From NCBI GenBank assembly GCA_024641735.1, contig JAHECN010000006.1, positions 1-48,521 on the forward strand: DNA of 48,521 bases, read 5' to 3'. Position 1 is the first letter of the stretch. Each line of letters opens with the position of its first letter. The notes under the pieces are model-generated. The model had not been told where the DNA came from. It worked only from the letters and a program-made list of their open reading frames with translations, and did no database searches. Positions 23,662 through 45,010 of the stretch are shown piece after piece. This DNA is from Gemmatimonadota bacterium. Its GTDB lineage: Bacteria; Gemmatimonadota; Gemmatimonadetes; Gemmatimonadales; GWC2-71-9. Position numbers and translations under genes: made by a program.

Positions 23662-24570
23662 TCACTTCGCCAGCCCCGCCGGCCCCTTCTCCCGCCCCAC
23701 CGCCACCGCCAGCACCGCCAGCGCCAACAGATACGGCAGCGCCTGGAAGAGCTGGTATGGCACCGCGCTTCCGCTCGCCTGGAAAGTGTATTGGAGTGCC
23801 GTTGCCGCGCCGAAGAGGAGCGCCGCGAGTCCGGCGCCGATCGGATGCCAGCGGCCGAGGACCACGATGGCGATCGCGATGAAGCCACGCCCCGCCGTCA
23901 TCTTCTCGGTGAAGGTGCCAACCTGCGAGAGGACCAGCGTCGCGCCCGCGAGACCGGCGAAGGCGCCACCGATCACGGTGGCCACCACGCGCCGACGCGT
24001 CACTGGGACACCCATGGCGCGAGCCGCCGCCGCCGACTCCCCCGCCGCCCGCACCTCCAAACCCCAACGCGTCCGGAAGAGGAGCCAAGTGGCCCAAGCG
24101 ATCGCGGCGAACGCGACATAACTCATGACAGACTGCGAGAAGAACGCGGGACCGATCACCGGGATTGCGGCGAGTCCGGGGATCGGCAGGACAGGAAGGG
24201 TCGGGATCGTGAGCCCCGCACCCGCATCACCGAAGGCGAGGCGTGCACCCAGTCCGGTGAGGCCGGTCATGCCGAGCGTCACGGCGGTGCCGGTGATGAT
24301 CTGATCCGCGCGCGCCCCGACGGCGACGGCCGCGAAGATCGCCGACGTCGCCATTCCCGCCGCGACCGCAAACGCGACACCCCCGAGTGGCCCCAAGGAA
24401 ATCGCACCCACCGCCGCGGCGAGCGCACCGGCGAGCATGGCGCCCTCGATGCCGAGGTTCAGCACACCACTCTTCTCGGTGATCGTTTCGCCGATGGCCG
24501 CGAGCAAGAGCGGTGTGGCCACTCGCACGCTCGCTGCCGCGAAGCCGGAGATCAGGGCGAGTTCAATCAT
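23662..24570 (-). CDS. ABC transporter permease, BMP/nucleoside-type (NupQ/YufQ-like)
   Basis: PLLLAAIGETITEKSGVLNLGIEGAMLAGA; coupled with the next permease. Confidence 0.9.
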   Translation of the reverse strand: MIELALISGFAAASVRVATPLLLAAIGETITEKSGVLNLGIEGAMLAGALAAAVGAISLGPLGGVAFAVAAGMATSAIFAAVAVGARADQIITGTAVTLGMTGLTGLGARLAFGDAGAGLTIPTLPVLPIPGLAAIPVIGPAFFSQSVMSYVAFAAIAWATWLLFRTRWGLEVRAAGESAAAARAMGVPVTRRRVVATVIGGAFAGLAGATLVLSQVGTFTEKMTAGRGFIAIAIVVLGRWHPIGAGLAALLFGAATALQYTFQASGSAVPYQLFQALPYLLALAVLAVAVGREKGPAGLAK

Positions 24571-25618
24571 TGCCGTTCGCCGTTCGCTGTCCGCTGTTCG
24601 CCGCCACCACCATCGTCAGAATCACCACCGCCTGCACCACCTGCACTGCCACCGCCGGAATCGCGGCGTCGCGCTGCATCCCGCCGGCTCCTGCTTCCAA
24701 CGCGCCGAACAACAATCCGGCGACCACCACACCGCCCGGCCGCAACCGGCCGAGCAACGCCACCGCGATCGCGGTGAACCCAAACCCTGGCGAGAGATTC
24801 AAATAGAGCGCGTACGACACCCCGCTCACCTCGACCGCCCCGCCGAGCCCGGCCAGTGCGCCGCTGATCAGGAGCGCGACCGCCAACAACCGGCCCGCGC
24901 GAATCCTGCCGCTCACCTCCGCCACCCTCGGCCCCGCGCCAACCGCACGCAGCTCGAATCCCCACCGCGATCGCTTCAGCACCACCGCCATCACCACCGC
25001 AACGGCAAATGCGATCAGCAACCCCAGGTGCAGCCGACTCATCGGCAGCAGCTTTGGCAGCCGCGCGGCCATCGTCAGCGACGCACTCTGCGGATAGATG
25101 CCACTCGGTTCCTGCAGCGGGCCCGTCACGGCGTAACTCACCGCCGCTTCCGCCACGAAGTTCAACAACAAGGTCGAGATGACTTCCGTCACCCCGAAGC
25201 GCAACCGCAACAACACCGGCACCGCCATCCAAAGCGCACCGGCCGCCATCCCCGCGCCGAGCACCATCGGCAACGCCACCACACCGGGCAGCGCACCAGT
25301 GTGCGTGCCCATCCACGCCGCTGCCATCGCACCCAACGCGAACTGTCCCTCCATCCCGATGTTGAGCGCGCCCCCTCTGCTCCCCAGCGTGAAGGCGAGC
25401 CCCAACAGAATGAGTGGCGTCGCGCGCACCAGTGTCGCCGACGTGAGGGCGTACCACGAGCCGAACGCACCGCGCCAGAGCGCGCCGAGCGCGAGGGGTA
25501 CATCGAAGCCGGCCACCAGGAGGAAGAGCGCCAGAAAGAGGAGCCCGAGTCCGAACGCTCCGGCGGTGACGCCGACGTCACGCCACCGCGAGTTGCTGCT
25601 CGGGGGAGCGAGCCTCAT
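24563..25618 (-). CDS. ABC transporter permease, BMP/nucleoside-type (NupP/YufP-like)
   Basis: ATPLILLGLAFTLGSRGGALNIGMEGQFALGA; TM pattern; C-terminus NSGQRTANGND encoded by heptamer repeats. Confidence 0.9.
   Translation of the reverse strand: MRLAPPSSNSRWRDVGVTAGAFGLGLLFLALFLLVAGFDVPLALGALWRGAFGSWYALTSATLVRATPLILLGLAFTLGSRGGALNIGMEGQFALGAMAAAWMGTHTGALPGVVALPMVLGAGMAAGALWMAVPVLLRLRFGVTEVISTLLLNFVAEAAVSYAVTGPLQEPSGIYPQSASLTMAARLPKLLPMSRLHLGLLIAFAVAVVMAVVLKRSRWGFELRAVGAGPRVAEVSGRIRAGRLLAVALLISGALAGLGGAVEVSGVSYALYLNLSPGFGFTAIAVALLGRLRPGGVVVAGLLFGALEAGAGGMQRDAAIPAVAVQVVQAVVILTMVVAANSGQRTANGND
24575..24602. repeat. heptamer repeat GTTCGCC-like x4 inside 3' end of permease CDS
   Basis: gttcgcc gttcgct gtccgct gttcgcc. 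Confidence 0.82.
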
Positions 25619-27054
25619 GGGGTCGGGAGCCCCAGCATCGCGTCACCAACCACGTCACGGGACGCCCCGGCTGGTACCGTGACGAGCTTTCCGTTCGCCA
25701 TGACCAAGACACGGTCAGCCAAGTCAAGAATTTCATCGAGGTCAGAGGAGTGCACGATCACCGCCGCTCCATTGGCCGCCGCGCTGCGCAATCGCGCGTG
25801 AATCGCTGCGGCCGCGTGCAGGTCGAGACCGCGCGTCGGGTCCTCGGCGACGAGCACATCCGGTTGGCGAGAGAGCACTCGTGCAAAAATCAGTTTCTGC
25901 TGATTACCACCACTCAGCGCGCTTGCCGCGCTCGCCGCATTGCCCCCTCGCACATCGTACTCGGCAAGCGCCAAGTCGCAGTCTGCCGCCAGGAGACCCC
26001 AGTCCATCCATCGCTCGCGGACACGACCGAGCACGAAGTTCTCCGTCAGGGAAAACTCCGGAATGATCCCTTCCGTGGTGCGGTCCTCAGGAACGAAGCC
26101 AACTGCCCCACTCACGCGCAGGGTGCCATCGACCCGAGTGATTTCGGGAAGCCCCGCCATGGCGCGCAACAACTCCCGCTGACCATTCCCTTCGATCGCC
26201 GCGATGCCGACGATCTCCCCAGCCATGCACTCCATCGTGATCGGCCCGACCGGTGTTCCGCCCCGTTCCGGCCGGAGCAGGAGTCCATCGGCGTGAACCC
26301 TCGTCCCGCCCGGCGTCACCGCGACACGCTCCGGTTGGGCAGGCGCTTCGCCAATCATCGCCAGGGCGAGGGAGCGCGGCGTCTGCTCCGCGACACGCCC
26401 CGTCAACGTGACCCGCCCCTGGCGCAACACGGTCACGCGGTCCGCAACAGCGAAGACCTCCGGCAACTTGTGCGAGATGAACACCACCGCCCCGCCCCGT
26501 GCCGCAAAAGCACGCACCATCGCCAACAGTTCCGTCACTTCTCGTGGCGCCAACACCGCCGTCGGTTCGTCGAGCAGAAGGATCTGCGGGTCGCTCGCCA
26601 TCGCCTTGACGATCTCGAGCCGTTGCCTGAGTTGCACCGAGAGCGTCTCGACCACGGCCTCCGCGTCGAGCGGCAATCCGATTCGCGCGATCGTCTCCCG
26701 CGCGCGCACTCCAAGCGCCTTCCCGCTCTCCTGCCATCCCGCCGCCAGCGCAATGTTCTCGGCGACGGTGAAGGCGGGGATGGAGGTGAAATGTTGAGCA
26801 ACCAATGAGAGGCGAGTCGTTGGTCGTGAGTCGTCAGAGGTGTCAGGTGAGTACGGTGTTCTCTCGCGACTCACGACTCGCGACTCGCCTCTATCCGCCG
26901 GCATCCGGCCGGCCGCGATCGCAACGAGCGTGCTCTTCCCTGCCCCATTCTCTCCCAACAACGCATGTACTTCTCCGGCAGCGGCGTCGAAGGAGACGTC
27001 GTCCAGGGCGAGGGTGGCGCCGAAGGACTTGGAGATGTGGGAGAGGGTTAGCAT
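25615..27054 (-). CDS. ABC transporter ATP-binding protein, BMP/nucleoside-type, two ABC domains, with repeat-derived internal segment
   Basis: LLGENGAGKSTLVAIAAG Walker A; LLLDEPTAVLAPREV; SGGNQQKLIFARVLSRQPDVLVAEDPTRGLD. Confidence 0.92.
   Translation of the reverse strand: MLTLSHISKSFGATLALDDVSFDAAAGEVHALLGENGAGKSTLVAIAAGRMPADRGESRVVSRERTPYSPDTSDDSRPTTRLSLVAQHFTSIPAFTVAENIALAAGWQESGKALGVRARETIARIGLPLDAEAVVETLSVQLRQRLEIVKAMASDPQILLLDEPTAVLAPREVTELLAMVRAFAARGGAVVFISHKLPEVFAVADRVTVLRQGRVTLTGRVAEQTPRSLALAMIGEAPAQPERVAVTPGGTRVHADGLLLRPERGGTPVGPITMECMAGEIVGIAAIEGNGQRELLRAMAGLPEITRVDGTLRVSGAVGFVPEDRTTEGIIPEFSLTENFVLGRVRERWMDWGLLAADCDLALAEYDVRGGNAASAASALSGGNQQKLIFARVLSRQPDVLVAEDPTRGLDLHAAAAIHARLRSAAANGAAVIVHSSDLDEILDLADRVLVMANGKLVTVPAGASRDVVGDAMLGLPTP
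26809..26891. repeat. GTCGTGA-type inverted repeat embedded in frame in ABC ATPase CDS
   Basis: GAGGCGAGTCGTTGGTCGTGAGTCGTCAGAG (26809-26839) / CTCTCGCGACTCACGACTCGCGACTCGCCTC (26861-26891), about 26/31 paired. Confidence 0.9.
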
Positions 27055-27060
27055 CGGAGA

Positions 27061-27134
27061 ATGGATCATGGATGATGGATCATGGATGACAGGAGTGCGG
27101 TATCCATCATCCATCATCTCTCATCCATCATCTC
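27061..27134. repeat. heptamer inverted repeat (ATGGATG/CATCCAT family)
   Basis: atggatcatggatgatggatcatggatgac ... tatccatcatccatcatctctcatccatcatctc. Confidence 0.85.
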
Positions 27135-27139
27135 TCGTT

Positions 27140-27907
27140 TCAAAGGCCCGTCGGATGATCATGAAACTCCCACGGCACCCCGAAGCGTTCGTGGAGCAGT
27201 TCGCCGAGCGCCTTCACGCCGACCGTTTCGGTGGCATAGTGTCCGGCGTAGAGGACGTTGATTCCGGCCTCGAGCGCGTCGAAGGTCGTGTAGTGCGCGC
27301 CCTCTCCCGTGATGTAGGTGTCGAGCCCTGCGGCGGCGGCGGCTTCGATGCGCCCTCCGGCCCCGCCGGTGATGATGCCGACGCGGGTGGTTGTTTCCGG
27401 ACCGCCGGGAATCAGGTGCACCCGAGCGCCCAGCAATTCTGTCAGCCGTGCGACCAGTCCATCACGCGAACTGATCAGGTGGCCGGCCGCACCGAAGGGC
27501 ATTCCCTTGTACGTGTCGAACGGCACCGGGTCGAGGATGCCGAGCATCTTGGCTAGCACGGCGTTGTTGCCGACCTCGGCGTGCGCGTCCAGCGGAATGT
27601 GTGCGCCATACACGGCGATGTCGTGATCAAAGAGCGCCTTCAATCGGCGGTGGCGTCGTCCGGTCACCGGGCGATTGCCATCCCAGAACAGCCCGTGGTG
27701 CACCACCAAGAGGGTGCCGCGCGGGCACTCTGCCACGACGCGATCGATCGTCTGCTGGGACGCATCGACCGCCGTGACGATTGCCGTGACGCTCCCACTG
27801 TTGGCGACCTGGAGCCCGTTCAACGCCCCCGACTCATCAGGGATATTGGTGACGTCGAGGTAGTGGTCGAGGAAGTCCGTGATCTCGTCGAGTGATGCCT
27901 GCTTCAT
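27140..27907 (-). CDS. Nif3-like dinuclear metal centre hexameric protein
   Basis: LVVHHGLFWDGNRPVTGR; YGAHIPLDAHAEVGNNAVLAKMLG; GGAGG; TGEGAHYTTFDALEAGINVLYAGHYATETVGV. Confidence 0.92.
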   Translation of the reverse strand: MKQASLDEITDFLDHYLDVTNIPDESGALNGLQVANSGSVTAIVTAVDASQQTIDRVVAECPRGTLLVVHHGLFWDGNRPVTGRRHRRLKALFDHDIAVYGAHIPLDAHAEVGNNAVLAKMLGILDPVPFDTYKGMPFGAAGHLISSRDGLVARLTELLGARVHLIPGGPETTTRVGIITGGAGGRIEAAAAAGLDTYITGEGAHYTTFDALEAGINVLYAGHYATETVGVKALGELLHERFGVPWEFHDHPTGL

Positions 27908-28878
27908 GGCGTTTTCGTTCCCGCGACAATGAGGGTTCCCGTAATGATCGAGTCGCGTGCGGCCTGCACGCGCTCGGCCAAGCCGGTCGGCCAGCGGTTC
28001 TGCAGCTCTGGGTTCGCCACAAACGCAATCACACCACTCTCCAAGCCGAACGACTCCACCCGGGGAGTGAAGCGATTCTCCTGCACTTCCCGCGCAATCA
28101 AAAGGAGGGCCCGGGGAAGTTCGAGCACGGCAGAACCCACCACGTGTCCGGGGGCGAGTGCGGATTGATCGGCGTTGGCACCGTATACATAGACGTTGGC
28201 TTGTTCTTTCGCGGCACCGAACAGACCGATCGCTGCGGCGTCTGCGTTGTGGTGGAGTTGGTCGACGCCGAGTCGGATCATGGCGAGTGCGGCCTCCTTC
28301 CCGGCGGCGGCATCGTCAAAGTTGCCGAGGTACGTGACGCGACTTTCGATATCGGGACGCGTCGCGCGGGCACCTTGCAGCCACCCTTCGTAGCCCAGCA
28401 CAATTGGGGGCAACTCCATCCCGCCAACGAAGCCGATCTTCCCGGTTTTGGTGAGCGCCCCCGCGACCATGCCCGCAAGGTACGTCGCCTCATGAATCCG
28501 AAAGATCAACGGCACGACATTGCCGACGACTTCCTGGCCGCTCGTGATCACAAAGATCGTTTTGGGAAACTCAGCCGCGGCCCGTTCCGCCGGTTGCTGG
28601 AATTCGTAGCCGTGGCCGAAGACGATCGTGTACCCCTCGGCGGCGTAACTCCGAAGCGCTTCTTCCTGGTCGGCCGGAGTTCGCGCTTCGATATGGGAGA
28701 CGGTTGCACCAAGGGAGTCGCGCACCTGTTGGAGACCGCTGTACGCACCGGCATTCCAGGCGGCATCGGCGATCGATCCGGGGGTGACCAGCGCCACGCG
28801 GAACGCGGCCGGTGGCGCTGACGTCTCGGAGCCACAGGCGCTGAACAGCAGGGCAATCGCGAGCAGGGTACCGCGCAT
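27904..28878 (-). CDS. BMP family ABC transporter substrate-binding lipoprotein
   Basis: Lipobox LLFSACGS; VALVTPGSIADAAWNAGAYSGLQQV; GKIGFVGGMELPPIVLGYEGWLQGA. Confidence 0.9.
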   Translation of the reverse strand: MRGTLLAIALLFSACGSETSAPPAAFRVALVTPGSIADAAWNAGAYSGLQQVRDSLGATVSHIEARTPADQEEALRSYAAEGYTIVFGHGYEFQQPAERAAAEFPKTIFVITSGQEVVGNVVPLIFRIHEATYLAGMVAGALTKTGKIGFVGGMELPPIVLGYEGWLQGARATRPDIESRVTYLGNFDDAAAGKEAALAMIRLGVDQLHHNADAAAIGLFGAAKEQANVYVYGANADQSALAPGHVVGSAVLELPRALLLIAREVQENRFTPRVESFGLESGVIAFVANPELQNRWPTGLAERVQAARDSIITGTLIVAGTKTP

Positions 28879-28904
28879 TGAACACTCCGGCGTCACGGAC
28901 CGTG

Positions 28905-30598: not shown

Positions 30599-30670
30599 GA
30601 GAGATCCAATTCGGTGGGGATTGCAGGGAAGATAGGGGGTTTGGTATGGAACGGATAGCGGGGAGGGGAG

Positions 30671-30684
30671 GTTTCACGTGAAAC
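30671..30684. promoter_or_regulatory. parS centromere-like site (ParB binding), site 1
   Basis: GTTTCACGTGAAAC followed by A; perfect 14-bp core of canonical TGTTTCACGTGAAACA; next to parAB. Confidence 0.95.
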
Positions 30685-30687
30685 ATG

Positions 30688-30808
30688 GAAGAGAGAGGAG
30701 AGAAGAGAAAGGAGAAAAGAGGACCCACCGGGATGGCGGCGCCGCGCCGAGGAATCCACCGAACCGCCTCCTTTCTCCTCTCTCTTCTCTCTTTTCTCTT
30801 TTCTCCTC
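30688..30808. repeat. imperfect inverted repeat: purine-rich (30688-30722) and pyrimidine-rich (30767-30808) arms with heptad periodicity, between two parS sites
   Basis: gagagga gagaaga gaaagga gaaaaga versus tttctcc tctctct tctctct tttctct tttctcc; about 24/27 bp pairing by eye. Confidence 0.7.
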
Positions 30809-30811
30809 ATC

Positions 30812-30825
30812 GTTTCACGTGAAAC
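30812..30825. promoter_or_regulatory. parS centromere-like site (ParB binding), site 2
   Basis: GTTTCACGTGAAAC perfect 14-bp core, 4 bp past the mnmG stop. Confidence 0.94.
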
Positions 30826-30828
30826 CCC

Positions 30829-32694
30829 CTACACAACCCGCTCCCGGCGCAGGATTTCGACCAACAGGTGCTGCAAGTCGGCCGGGGAGACCCCAGGAAT
30901 ACGGCCGGCTTGCGCCAACGTGGTCGGCTGGACGCGGGCCAGCTTCTCTCTGGCCTCGTACGACAGCACGGTCATCTCAGCCCACGGGAGGTCGGCGGGG
31001 AGGGGGGAGGCCTCAAGGCGGGCCACCTTCTCGGCGGAGACCCGCTCCCGGGCGAGATATCCGCCGTACCGGAGCTCGATTCCGGCCCATTCCGACTCTT
31101 CGGCGGTGAAATCCGCGCCCACAGCCTGAAAGAGGGCGGGAAGGGAGACCCCAGGCCGCTTCACCAGCTCCGCGATGCGCACCGGCTCAGAGATAGGGCT
31201 GGATCCTGCCGCTGTCAGCGCCGCAACTGCCACCGCAGGAGATACCGCGGTCTGCTGCGAGGCCTCGAGGGCGAGATCCTCCCGTTCCAGGCGCCGTTCC
31301 GCGGCCTTCCGCTCTACGTCGGACCAGAGCCCTAGCCGCAGCGCGGTGGGGGCCAGCCTGCGGAGTGCGTTGTCCTGGCGAAGCAGCAGGCGATGCTCGG
31401 CGCGCGAGGTAAAGAGCCGGTACGGCTCGTCAACGCCCCGAGAAACGAGGTCATCCACCAGCACGCCGCAGTACCCCTCGTCTCGACCGAAGATCACCGG
31501 TTCGAGGTCGAGGGCGTGGGCGGCGGCGTTCAGCCCCGCAACCGCGCCCTGGCCGGCAGCTTCCTCGTATCCCGTGGTCCCGTTGACCTGCCCGGCGGTA
31601 TAGAGCCCGGGGATCGACTTCACTGCGAGGGTGCGGTCCAGCTGCGTGGGCGGGAGATAGTCATACTCGATCGCGTAGCCGGGGCGCGTCATCACCACCT
31701 GCTCCATCCCAGGGATCAGCCGGAGCATGCGCTCCTGCACCTCGGGAGGAAGGGAGGTCGACAAACCGCCGACGTACATCTCCTCTGTATCCAGTCCTTC
31801 CGGCTCCAAAAAGACCTGGTGACGGGGAGCATCGGGGAACTTCACGATCTTGTCCTCGACGCTTGGGCAATACCGCGGGCCTCGACCTGAGATCTCGCCC
31901 CCGTAGAGAGCGGAATCGGCAAGGTGCCGTTCGATCAGCTCCCTGACAGGCGCCCCTGTATGGGTCAGCCAGCAGGGCCGACTCTCGGGGTGACGCGCCC
32001 GTTCGTGGTAGGAGAACCAGTAGGGAGCTGGGTCGGCGTCCTGCCGCTGCATCACCGAGCGATCCAGCGTGGTTCCGTCCACCCTGGGAGGCGTTCCGGT
32101 CTTGAAGCGTTCGACCGTAACCCCAAGTGCCGCAAGGTTTTGCGCGATTTCCACCGACGGTGGTTCGCCCGCTCTTCCGGCAGGAACCGTGTGGGTCGTA
32201 CCCACGTGGATCCGGCCCCGCAGGAAGGTCCCCGCCGTCAGCACCACGGCGCGTGCCCGAAGCGTGGAGCCGTCGGCGGTACGGACGCCAACCACTCGTC
32301 CGCCCTCCAGGAGAAACTCGGTCGCCGTCCCTTCCACTAACGCGATCGGATGCCGACAGGGCACCTCACCCAGCAGGCCACGCACCGCAGCGCGATAGAG
32401 TGCACGGTCACACTGCGCTCGGGGGCTCGCGACCGCCGGCCCTTTGCTGCGGTTAAGCATGCGGAATTGGATCATGGCTCGGTCAGTCGCGCGGCCCATC
32501 ACGCCACCCAACGCGTCGACCTCGCGCACCACGGTACCCTTGGCAATCCCGCCGATGGCTGGGTTGCACGACATCTGACCGATCGTGTCCAGTCGCTGGG
32601 TCAACAAGGTGACGCGCGCACCTCGGCGCGCCGCAAGCGCGGCGGCTTCGGCGCCGGCGTGGCCACCACCGAGGATGAGGACGTCGGAATGCAT
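30829..32694 (-). CDS. mnmG: tRNA uridine-5-carboxymethylaminomethyl(34) synthesis enzyme MnmG (GidA)
   Basis: DVLILGGGHAGAEAAALAARRGARVTLLT; MSCNPAIGGIAKGTVVREVDALGG; GRGPRYCPSVEDKIVKFPD; VNGTTGYEEAAGQG. Confidence 0.97.
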   Translation of the reverse strand: MHSDVLILGGGHAGAEAAALAARRGARVTLLTQRLDTIGQMSCNPAIGGIAKGTVVREVDALGGVMGRATDRAMIQFRMLNRSKGPAVASPRAQCDRALYRAAVRGLLGEVPCRHPIALVEGTATEFLLEGGRVVGVRTADGSTLRARAVVLTAGTFLRGRIHVGTTHTVPAGRAGEPPSVEIAQNLAALGVTVERFKTGTPPRVDGTTLDRSVMQRQDADPAPYWFSYHERARHPESRPCWLTHTGAPVRELIERHLADSALYGGEISGRGPRYCPSVEDKIVKFPDAPRHQVFLEPEGLDTEEMYVGGLSTSLPPEVQERMLRLIPGMEQVVMTRPGYAIEYDYLPPTQLDRTLAVKSIPGLYTAGQVNGTTGYEEAAGQGAVAGLNAAAHALDLEPVIFGRDEGYCGVLVDDLVSRGVDEPYRLFTSRAEHRLLLRQDNALRRLAPTALRLGLWSDVERKAAERRLEREDLALEASQQTAVSPAVAVAALTAAGSSPISEPVRIAELVKRPGVSLPALFQAVGADFTAEESEWAGIELRYGGYLARERVSAEKVARLEASPLPADLPWAEMTVLSYEAREKLARVQPTTLAQAGRIPGVSPADLQHLLVEILRRERVV

Positions 32695-38429: not shown

Positions 38430-38848
38430 GCGCAGTGTGTCTCGAACGCGGCGACGATGTCACCCGCGATCTCATCGGCCGAGCGTCCTTCGATCTGGTG
38501 CCGGTGAATGAACGCCACCACTTCGCCGTTCTTGAGCAGCGCCGCCGAGGGCGACGACGGCTGATACTCACCGAAGTAGGAACGGACTCGCGCCGTGGCA
38601 TCGAGATCCTGTCCCGCAAAGACCGTCACCATCTTGCCCGGCTTCGCTTTCGCGGTGGCGAGCGCCTTGGCCAACGCAGGTCGCGCGCCACCCGCGGCAC
38701 ATCCGCACATCGAGTTCACAAAAACGAAAGCGGTGCCCTCACCATCGGCGAGTGCGGCATCGACCTCGGCCACGCTCTTCATTTCCTGCACGCCAAGGCG
38801 TGTGACTTCTTCGCGCATGGGCTTGATCATCAGTTCGGGGTAGGGCAT
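38426..38848 (-). CDS. BrxA/BrxB-family bacilliredoxin
   Basis: MPYPELMIKPMREEVTRLGVQEMKS; VNSMCGCAAGGARPAL; VTVFAGQDLDATARVRSYFGEYQPSSPSAALLKNG. Confidence 0.94.
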   Translation of the reverse strand: MPYPELMIKPMREEVTRLGVQEMKSVAEVDAALADGEGTAFVFVNSMCGCAAGGARPALAKALATAKAKPGKMVTVFAGQDLDATARVRSYFGEYQPSSPSAALLKNGEVVAFIHRHQIEGRSADEIAGDIVAAFETHCA

Positions 38849-38864
38849 AGGGTCAATTTCCTTT

Positions 38865-38944
38865 GTGAGTCGTTGGTCGTGAGTCGTGAGTCGCGAGAGG
38901 GTCTTGGGCCATGGGAGGTTCGCCTCTCACGACTCGCGACTCGC
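38865..38944. repeat. heptamer inverted repeat (GTCGTGA family) reaching into sufU 3' end
   Basis: gtgagtcgttggtcgtgagtcgtgagtcgcgagagg ... cctctcacgactcgcgactcgcc. Confidence 0.87.
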
Positions 38945-41867: not shown

Positions 41868-42634
41868 CAGACGGCCGCTCCCTCAGCAACCCCGGTCAAC
41901 CACTCATACCCCTTGGCCTCGAGTTCAAGCGCCAACTCCTTGCCGCCACTCTTCACAATCTTTCCGCCCGCGAGGACGTGCACGAAGTCCGGCACGATGA
42001 AGTCGAGCAGGCGCTGGTAGTGCGTCACCAGAATGATGGCGCGATCGGGGCGACGGAGAGCGTTCACGCCATCCGACACGATCCGCAGGGCGTCGATGTC
42101 GAGGCCGGAGTCGGTCTCGTCCAGAATGGCGAGCTTCGGCTCGAGTACCGCCATCTGCAGGATCTCGTTCCGCTTCTTCTCACCACCGGAGAAGCCGAAG
42201 TTGACAGCGCGCTCCATGATTTCCGGACCCCACTGCACCACCCGCAACTTCTCCTCGAGGATGTCGAGGAAGTCCATCGGATCGAGCTCGTCCAGCCCGC
42301 GCGCCTTCCGGATTTCGTTGAACGCCATCCGGAGGAAGTAGGCGTTGGTGACGCCAGGAATTTCCACGGGATACTGGAACGCGAGGAAGACACCGGCCCA
42401 GGCACGCTCTTCCGCTTCCATGTCGAGGAGGTCCTCGCCTTCGAGCGTGGCGGTGCCGCTGGTCACGTCATACGCGGGGTGCCCAGCGAGCACCTGCGCC
42501 AACGTGCTCTTGCCGGAGCCGTTCGGGCCCATGATCGCGTGGACTTCGCCGGCGTTCACGGTCAGGGAGATCCCCTTGAGGATTTCCTTCTCGTCCGCGG
42601 AGGCGTGCAGGTCGGTGATTTGGAGCAAAGGCAT
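41867..42634 (-). CDS. sufC: Fe-S cluster assembly ATPase SufC
   Basis: IMGPNGSGKSTLAQVLAGHPAYDVTSG; FLAFQYPVEIPGVTNAYFLRMAFN; FSGGEKKRNEILQMAVLEPKLAILDETDSGLDIDAL. Confidence 0.97.
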   Translation of the reverse strand: MPLLQITDLHASADEKEILKGISLTVNAGEVHAIMGPNGSGKSTLAQVLAGHPAYDVTSGTATLEGEDLLDMEAEERAWAGVFLAFQYPVEIPGVTNAYFLRMAFNEIRKARGLDELDPMDFLDILEEKLRVVQWGPEIMERAVNFGFSGGEKKRNEILQMAVLEPKLAILDETDSGLDIDALRIVSDGVNALRRPDRAIILVTHYQRLLDFIVPDFVHVLAGGKIVKSGGKELALELEAKGYEWLTGVAEGAAV

Positions 42635-42655
42635 TTAGTAATGTCCGTGGTGATG

Positions 42656-42739
42656 GTCGTGAGTCTCTAGTCGTGAGTCGTGAGAGGAGTCGTACGTCGG
42701 GGCGGCTCTCGCGACCCACGACCAACGACTCACCTCTCG

Positions 42740-42740
<1 letters not shown>
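42656..42740. repeat. heptamer inverted repeat (GTCGTGA family) between sufC and sufB
   Basis: tggtcgtgagtctctagtcgtgagtcgtgagagg ... ggctctcgcgacccacgaccaacgactcacctctcgc. Confidence 0.85.
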
Positions 42741-44173: not shown

Positions 44174-44856
44174 GAGGCCTCCTCGCCTGCGTCGTCGCCC
44201 GACAGGGCAACCACATAACTGCACGTGCCACAGCCGCCCGCAATGCGCGAGCGGCGTTCGATGGGGGCTGCAAAGACCCGCGCCAGGAAGCGTTCTTCCG
44301 CGGCGCAGACTTCTGGAAAACGTTCCGCGATCAGTCGATGCGGACAATGATGTTCCGTCAACAATCCTTCCGTCGACGCGTGGGCCCAGGTCGCCATGTA
44401 CCCCTCGGCGTCGAGCACGCGCGCGACCACTTCGCCCCGCCGCTCATCGCTCACGCCGCGTGTCTCCACTTCCAACCGCTCGGCGAGGGCGTGGTATTGC
44501 TGTTCCAGCAGCGCCACCGCCGCGTCCCGACCCGAGGTCGCCACCAGATGGTCGAGCAGGGAGACGATCGTCCGCTCGTAGCGATCCGGAAAGAGCGCGT
44601 GCCCCTTCGGGGTCAGGCGGTAGGTGTGCGCCGGCGCACCAACACCCTGAGGAGTCCGGTCATAGCCGATCACCCCCTCGGCCTCCAGCTCCTTGAGATG
44701 GTGTCGGACCGCGTTGAGCGAGTAGCCCAACACCTCCGCCAACTCGCCTACCGTTGCCCCCGTCTCACGCTTCAGATGCAGGAGCACCAGGCCACGCGGG
44801 CCGCGGTGTCCGGCAGGAGCCGCCGATTCGTCGAGAGGAAGTGCAGGAGAAGCCAT
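44170..44856 (-). CDS. sufR: SufR-like transcriptional repressor (ArsR/DeoR-type HTH + Cys-rich C-terminus)
   Basis: [65 protein letters not shown]...GGCGTCSY; position upstream of sufB. Confidence 0.92.
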
Positions 44857-44864
44857 AGCCCGGG

Positions 44865-44893
44865 ATTTTAGCCAAAAACTGGGTATATGTCAA
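44865..44893 (-). promoter_or_regulatory. sigma70-type promoter for sufR-suf operon
   Basis: On minus strand: TTGACA (44893-44888) - 17 bp - TAAAAT (44870-44865), 8 bp before the ATG at 44856. Confidence 0.8.
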
Positions 44894-44917
44894 TTCACAC
44901 AAGGAAAATGGTGTAAA
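44894..44917. promoter_or_regulatory. candidate SufR operator (imperfect inverted repeat abutting -35)
   Basis: TTCACAC-AAGGAAAATG-GTGTAAA directly upstream of the -35 hexamer. Confidence 0.45.
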
Positions 44918-44921
44918 CTGC

Positions 44922-45010
44922 GGGGATGATGGATGATTGATGATGGGCATCGGCACCCGGTAGGGAGATCGCGGCGACACCACCAGACCCCATCCATCAT
45001 CCATCATCCC
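44922..45010. repeat. heptamer inverted repeat (ATGGATG family) between sufR promoter and patatin gene
   Basis: gggatgatggatgattgatgatggg ... ccccatccatcatccatcatccc. Confidence 0.85.

Follow-up and report, generated by a model that had tools for sequence, protein, structure and literature searches.

A predicted in-frame hairpin of facing heptamer arrays within an ABC ATPase gene of a Gemmatimonadota bacterium

The window analysed here, a stretch of 48,521 nt, carries at positions 26808-26892 an inverted repeat of 7-bp units that lies in frame within the gene of a two-domain, nucleoside-type ABC ATPase. Judged from its sequence, this predicted hairpin is a translatable, in-frame copy of two facing GTCGYGA heptamer arrays, the commonest intergenic repeat of the genome (G000). 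The reading that we favour, at a probability of about 70%, is that a permissive loop of the ATPase was colonised in frame by the heptamer arrays of the genome and that the change was tolerated, the insert most likely being without a special function. In-frame coding palindromes would in this way be extended from Rickettsia to simple heptamer arrays.

Structure of the hairpin and state of the ATPase gene

The left arm of the hairpin (26808-26839, + strand) is the heptad array AGAGGCGAGTCGTTGGTCGTGAGTCGTCAGAG, and the right arm (26861-26892, - strand) is an array that reads AGAGGCGAGTCGCGAGTCGTGAGTCGCGAGAG on the coding strand. The arms are of 32 nt each and 84% complementary, and they are separated by a 21-nt spacer (26840-26860) that codes for approximately residues R86-T93 (RTPYSPDT). 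The first-pass annotation had placed an in-frame hairpin at 26800-26895, with 31-bp arms of which about 26 bp were paired, and had identified it with the GTCGTGA inverted repeat seen in spacers; the computed arms bear out these coordinates to within a few bases, and the element indeed belongs to the commonest intergenic repeat class of the genome, GTCGYGA. An arm of one intergenic element (L156) is an array nearly identical to the left arm. The predicted fold energy of the 111-nt stretch with the hairpin was -56 kcal/mol, and when this stretch was compared with dinucleotide shuffles the z-scores were -4.4 for DNA and -6.8 for RNA, with none of the 200 shuffles equalling it. The window contains 29 copies of GTCGTGA vs 11.4 expected, a count that no shuffle reached. 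No target-site duplication was evident by eye at 26800-26900. The presence of a terminator or a promoter within the gene was considered and rejected, since neither was found there; the hairpin does not show the signature of an intrinsic terminator, a GC-rich stem with a T run behind it.

The ORF at 25615-27117 (- strand) is open across the hairpin and reads there GESRVVSRERTPYSPDTSDDSRPTTRLSLVAQHF, in agreement with the protein reading proposed earlier between Walker A and the Q-loop; SRVVSRERTPYSPDTSDDSRPTTR is a peptide stretch within this translation. The hairpin-derived part amounts to 27 residues located between the two motifs, and the corresponding 81-nt coding stretch, ESRVVSRERTPYSPDTSDDSRPTTRLS (26806-26886, - strand; ORF residues 78-104), has a counterpart of 27 nt (ARQVRGRVA) in the closest relative, G007. 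The probable start codon is that of M22, so that the gene would span 25615-27054 (- strand), because homology begins at this residue and the preceding 21 codons are made of a second hairpin, the intergenic GGATGAT/GGATCAT heptamer hairpin immediately upstream of the gene (27061-27132). The gene would encode the ATPase of a BMP/nucleoside-type importer, as the two ABC ATPase domains were confirmed by search and the adjoining permease and BMP genes were assigned by reading the sequence. The permease gene (24563-25618, - strand) belongs to the same cluster, and its final codons are a GCCGTTC-type heptamer repeat. The gene at 27904-28896 (- strand) presumably encodes the BMP-type substrate-binding lipoprotein, as judged from its sequence and from what is known of the family, and a Nif3-like gene sits between it and the ATPase gene.

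Apart from the loop the ATPase gene shows no damage and evolves under purifying selection. It retains Walker A, the Q-loop Gln, the signature, Walker B and the H-loop, and dN/dS outside the loop was ~0.12 relative to G007, a rough figure since it comes from 163 codons with a near-saturated dS of ~1.6. The only parts with a codon-usage score below zero were residues 76-100 and the N-terminus, which is probably untranslated. In the AF2 model (mean pLDDT 87.8) most of the core is above 90 and residues 86-99 are below 50; the hairpin-derived insert is drawn as a disordered loop and residues 76-81 as a strand, so that the peptide of the first arm may take the place of the first beta strand, which is lost. 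In addition, H107, which is nearly invariant among the orthologues, is Ala here, beside the insert, so that activity may be altered. Searches of the PDB returned generic ABC ATPases only, and searches with the ATPase gave no hits in genome contigs other than distant ABC ATPases from different phyla, and none in viral contigs.

The loop in orthologous ATPases

Related ATPases were said in the first-pass annotation to carry usually a beta segment at this place, and of the 26 other orthologues read (L013 being left out) nearly all bear this out, with a segment that ends in GIGM or close to it. A repeat or a heptamer-derived loop was absent from the site in all 26. The loop of G007 consists of ARQVRGRVA only (9 residues), with neither beta segment nor repeat, and half of the beta segment is gone in G004, again without any repeat. 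The claim that the repeat had replaced the segment is therefore unsupported in the form in which it was made: the loss is not clearly due to the repeat, and with a loop of such variable length an order of events in which shortening came first and insertion later appears at least as likely as replacement. The stretch from the Gly to the SP varies from ~4 to 18 residues across the genus; G000 has 12, the length seen in most orthologues of the family, and the S-P pair in the hairpin spacer falls where the orthologues have their conserved SP. G007 is the single close relative that covers the hairpin site, and with its differing loop it provides no clean empty site, so that the insertion cannot be dated.

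Heptamer arrays in the genome

Arrays were counted in 984 kb of the 2.75 Mb of G000, a fragmented draft assembly of 245 contigs, and all the GTCGYGAGAG motif sites were listed besides. There were 173 period-7 arrays in the 984 kb, vs 1-16 for periods 5, 6 and 8-11, and 109 in 480 kb of the genome, vs 3-12 for periods 4-6 and 8-13. The units fall into about two dozen classes, with GTCGYGA as the biggest. In the 480 kb, 95 of 106 arrays were intergenic, although intergenic DNA makes up only ~8%. The GTCGYGA arrays start at a median distance of 7 bp from the gene edge, and 106 out of 126 point away from the adjacent gene. As the arrays read away from genes, two arrays in one gap point towards one another, which allows a hairpin to form. 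The spacers of the GTCGYGA elements are unique and 5-148 nt long and the arms are variable; some spacers hold apparent terminators, and one contains a nested hairpin built from a different heptamer. Such nested hairpins, with GGGAACA arrays within GTCGYGA arms, are seen at L086 11267-11415.

Maintenance of the hairpins by compensatory change was considered for the GTCGYGA elements and rejected, since the arm-arm identity within an element (0.655) equals that of shuffled partners from different elements (0.658). Hence, arm pairing follows from the shared unit and the opposite orientation, with no visible selection on the pairing as such.

In-frame arrays in other proteins

Two of the 52 two-arm GTCGYGA elements lie inside genes, those of the ABC ATPase and of NadE; only the NadE element fell in a called gene, the ABC gene having been clipped at the hairpin by the gene caller. 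In the NadE of G000 (L080, 13225-15006) the GTCGYGA hairpin is in frame in the interdomain linker, with the peptide RVVSRES...SRDSRPTTH, and the two hairpins share a reading frame, giving RVVSRE...DSRPTT. The frames open in GTCGYGA elements average 1.1 out of 3 per strand. The frame-critical unit, which would introduce a stop if it had the consensus TCGTGA, is TCAAGA in NadE and the CGA variant in the ABC gene, which fits selection for an open frame in coding GTCGYGA hairpins, as far as two cases can suggest.

The earlier remark that no such case was known for heptamer repeats does not hold, since in-frame arrays occur in NadE, in a Ser/Thr kinase and in DnaE as well. In a sample of 35 NadE loci, 14 period-7/8 arrays were found in 4.9 kb of linkers (two of the 14 being plain GC-rich runs), vs 1 in 55 kb of the remaining open frames. 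The linker units include GGGACGT in G001, the octamers GGCGGACR in G013 and AGGCGGGA in G010, and CGGGAGN in G024, among others; the arrays (L119, L125, L127, L178) are inverted heptamers or octamers whose unit differs by genus. In G024, perfectly matched heptamer arms surround VKFDPATNG, and G019 has VKFDPAANG with different arrays. The perfect match of the arms in G024 suggests that recent inverted copying may occur.

The linker between the kinase domain and the membrane helix of a Ser/Thr kinase (L070, 7614-10286; also L203 and L205) carries a GAGAGGA-type hairpin in G000 and a GAGACGA one in G009 and G008; these comparisons are best matches in a paralogue-rich family, so that orthology is likely but unproved. 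In a loop of DnaE the units are GTTCTCC in G000 and GGACGGA in one of the G003 copies, and G004 has none there. At the same loop the DnaE of G007 (L094, C53 ~26246-27919) has an in-frame copy of an unrelated palindromic repeat (GATCCTTCGACTCGC...GCTCAGGATGAC). Repeated colonisation of the same protein linkers is thus seen, with a spelling of the arrays that differs among lineages.

Differing units at syntenic sites

Ten syntenic intergenic regions were informative for G000 and G007: arrays were present in both genomes at six and in neither at four, and the units differed at every one of the six common sites. At four sites of the window (27061-27132, 38848-38927, 42628-42740 and 44787-45010) a facing heptamer pair is also present in G007 C204 (L093 and L031), the units in G000/G007 being GGATGAT/GGATNTT, GTCGTGA/GTCGTAG twice, and GGATGAT/GTGAAAG. 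The genome-wide probe matches likewise separate the lineages: GTCGTGA matched 32 times in G000 and 2 in G007, GTCGTAG 6 times in G000 and 212 in G007, and GAGACGA 2 times in G000, 0 in G007, 224 in G001 and 100 in G009. That syntenic sites keep their arrays while the unit changes is suggestive only, because the regions are few and mostly from one region, one of the G007 arrays is weak, and longer gaps favour arrays. Since repeats of the same design and different spelling are found in relatives in the loops of other proteins, the repeats seem to change by lineage and, in doing so, to reshape protein loops.

This lineage-by-lineage change of the unit at conserved sites is a more interesting part of the picture than the ATPase insert alone. 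A tentative and rather doubtful extension is that an active process both places and rewrites short arrays, with units of 7 or 8 nt, at fixed sites (gene edges, in the outward orientation, and permissive loops), with each lineage re-spelling its arrays, the translated ones included; this would be a concerted evolution of dispersed micro-arrays that edits protein loops. Syntenic sites of this kind would make the abundance and spread of heptamers in bacteria testable through the comparison of close genomes.

Relation to known repeats

The cyanobacterial STRR-type heptanucleotides are another kind of heptameric array. With the STRR/Xanthomonas type G000 shares tandem 7-nt repeats, far above other periods, that are mostly intergenic, lie close to gene edges, often form facing pairs and have a fixed orientation. 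According to the excerpted account, the GGGANTN arrays of Xanthomonas and the GGGGAYT arrays of Nostoc occur at many loci, mostly intergenic and 0-50 bp from gene edges, tolerate unit variants and overlap stop codons; Xanthomonas has 70-75 facing inverted pairs, 7-11% of its repeats lie at least partly in ORFs, its arrays lie for the most part on the coding strand where they follow a stop and on the non-coding strand where they precede a start, and 83% of the Xcc repeats are matched by a G-rich repeat at the same context of Xac (PMC4692102). TAACTGA heptamer arrays appear in an excerpted account of the Beggiatoaceae (PMC4679880). Our arrays resemble those of Xanthomonas and Nostoc, as excerpted, in their 7-nt units with tolerated variants, many loci, mostly intergenic placement near gene edges and overlap with stop codons. 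However, GTCGYGA has no G run, unlike their G-quadruplex-capable G-rich unit, and by comparison with the same excerpts many unit classes coexist here in one genome, and close relatives have different units at their common sites, unlike the Xcc/Xac pair. In-frame placement in defined protein loops is not among the features described in that excerpted account (PMC4692102).

The comparison with Rickettsia palindromic elements drawn in the first-pass annotation was apt, since both are in-frame coding palindromes. These elements reportedly go back to Ogata in 2000 and 2002. In the excerpted source they are of ~150 bp, form families with a conserved peptide, and lie in frame in unrelated metabolic genes, where they are apparently tolerated (PMC10969869). 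Here too a palindrome is in frame in unrelated genes (ABC ATPase, NadE) with a similar peptide, but, relative to that excerpt, only the arm heptads are common, each spacer being unique and the unit varying with the lineage, and no full-length element is conserved, given spacers of 5-148 nt and variable arms. Nematomorph mitochondrial genes contain perfect coding inverted repeats that are gained and lost between species (PMC6649704); our repeats are likewise inside protein-coding genes, whereas the nematomorph ones are perfect, mitochondrial and not described as tandem-unit arrays (PMC6649704). REP and MITE elements are similar as dispersed inverted repeats near gene edges, but differ in that no conserved element body was found here. 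The closest known systems are therefore the heptamers of Xanthomonas and Nostoc for the architecture and the Rickettsia elements for the in-frame palindromes, with a full match to neither, and neither precedent, as excerpted, covers the recurrence, in the same protein loops, of arrays with lineage-specific units. Literature searches retrieved no report of such repeats in this bacterial group.

Origin of the ATPase insert

In the reading that we favour, arrays would spread as short modules via replication slippage and ectopic copying or template switching between arrays, and would land nearly always in the gaps between genes. The rare in-frame landings in permissive loops or linkers would persist on account of a peptide that has no structure and does no harm, and the site in the ATPase would be such a place, a length-variable loop in the antiparallel-beta subdomain of the first nucleotide-binding domain. 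The arms could instead have been written over the native beta segment around a retained SP core, i.e., by in-place conversion to heptamers. The usual Gly-to-SP length, the S-P pair at the conserved position and the apparently native spacers of the G024 and G019 NadE would fit such overwriting, but G007 has lost SP and GIGM with no repeat, the loop varies so widely in the genus that 12 residues can arise by chance, and SP is just two residues; we regard this course as unlikely. Selection of the intragenic stem itself, e.g., for ribosome pausing or for tuning operon expression, draws on the very stable predicted stem and on the gene-edge sites, conserved between G000 and G007, at which arrays occur; as pairing is not visibly maintained between arms, the terminator signature is absent and the orthologues do without a stem, a functional hairpin seems quite improbable.

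The insert could also mark an ATPase that is becoming a pseudogene, with its beta segment lost and H107A adjacent, although the complete ATPase motifs, the open neighbouring transporter genes, the dN/dS of ~0.12 and the intact frame of the G007 gene despite the missing segment make gene decay very improbable. A repeat collapsed or spliced into the gene during assembly or binning is the least probable of these explanations: a repeat-rich draft of 245 contigs invites such artefacts, but the insert keeps a stop-free frame where so few frames are open on average, a similar insert lies in NadE on a different contig, and in-frame arrays occur in the NadE, kinase and DnaE loops of separately assembled relatives.

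Arrays at C-termini and near parA

The RidA-, KsgA- and Nth-like proteins (L079 2718-3113, L089 4187-4993 and L084 11218-11874, respectively) have C-termini that end inside heptamer arrays, as does the permease of the window (24563-24601). These arrays give SRES*-like tails, and the TGA of the unit is sometimes the stop codon. In addition, the gap between parA and the next gene (window 30667-30829) holds a GAGAAAA-type heptamer hairpin between two GTTTCACGTGAAAC (parS-like) sites, and two GTTTCACGTGAAAC sites are likewise present in the parA-adjacent gap of G007.
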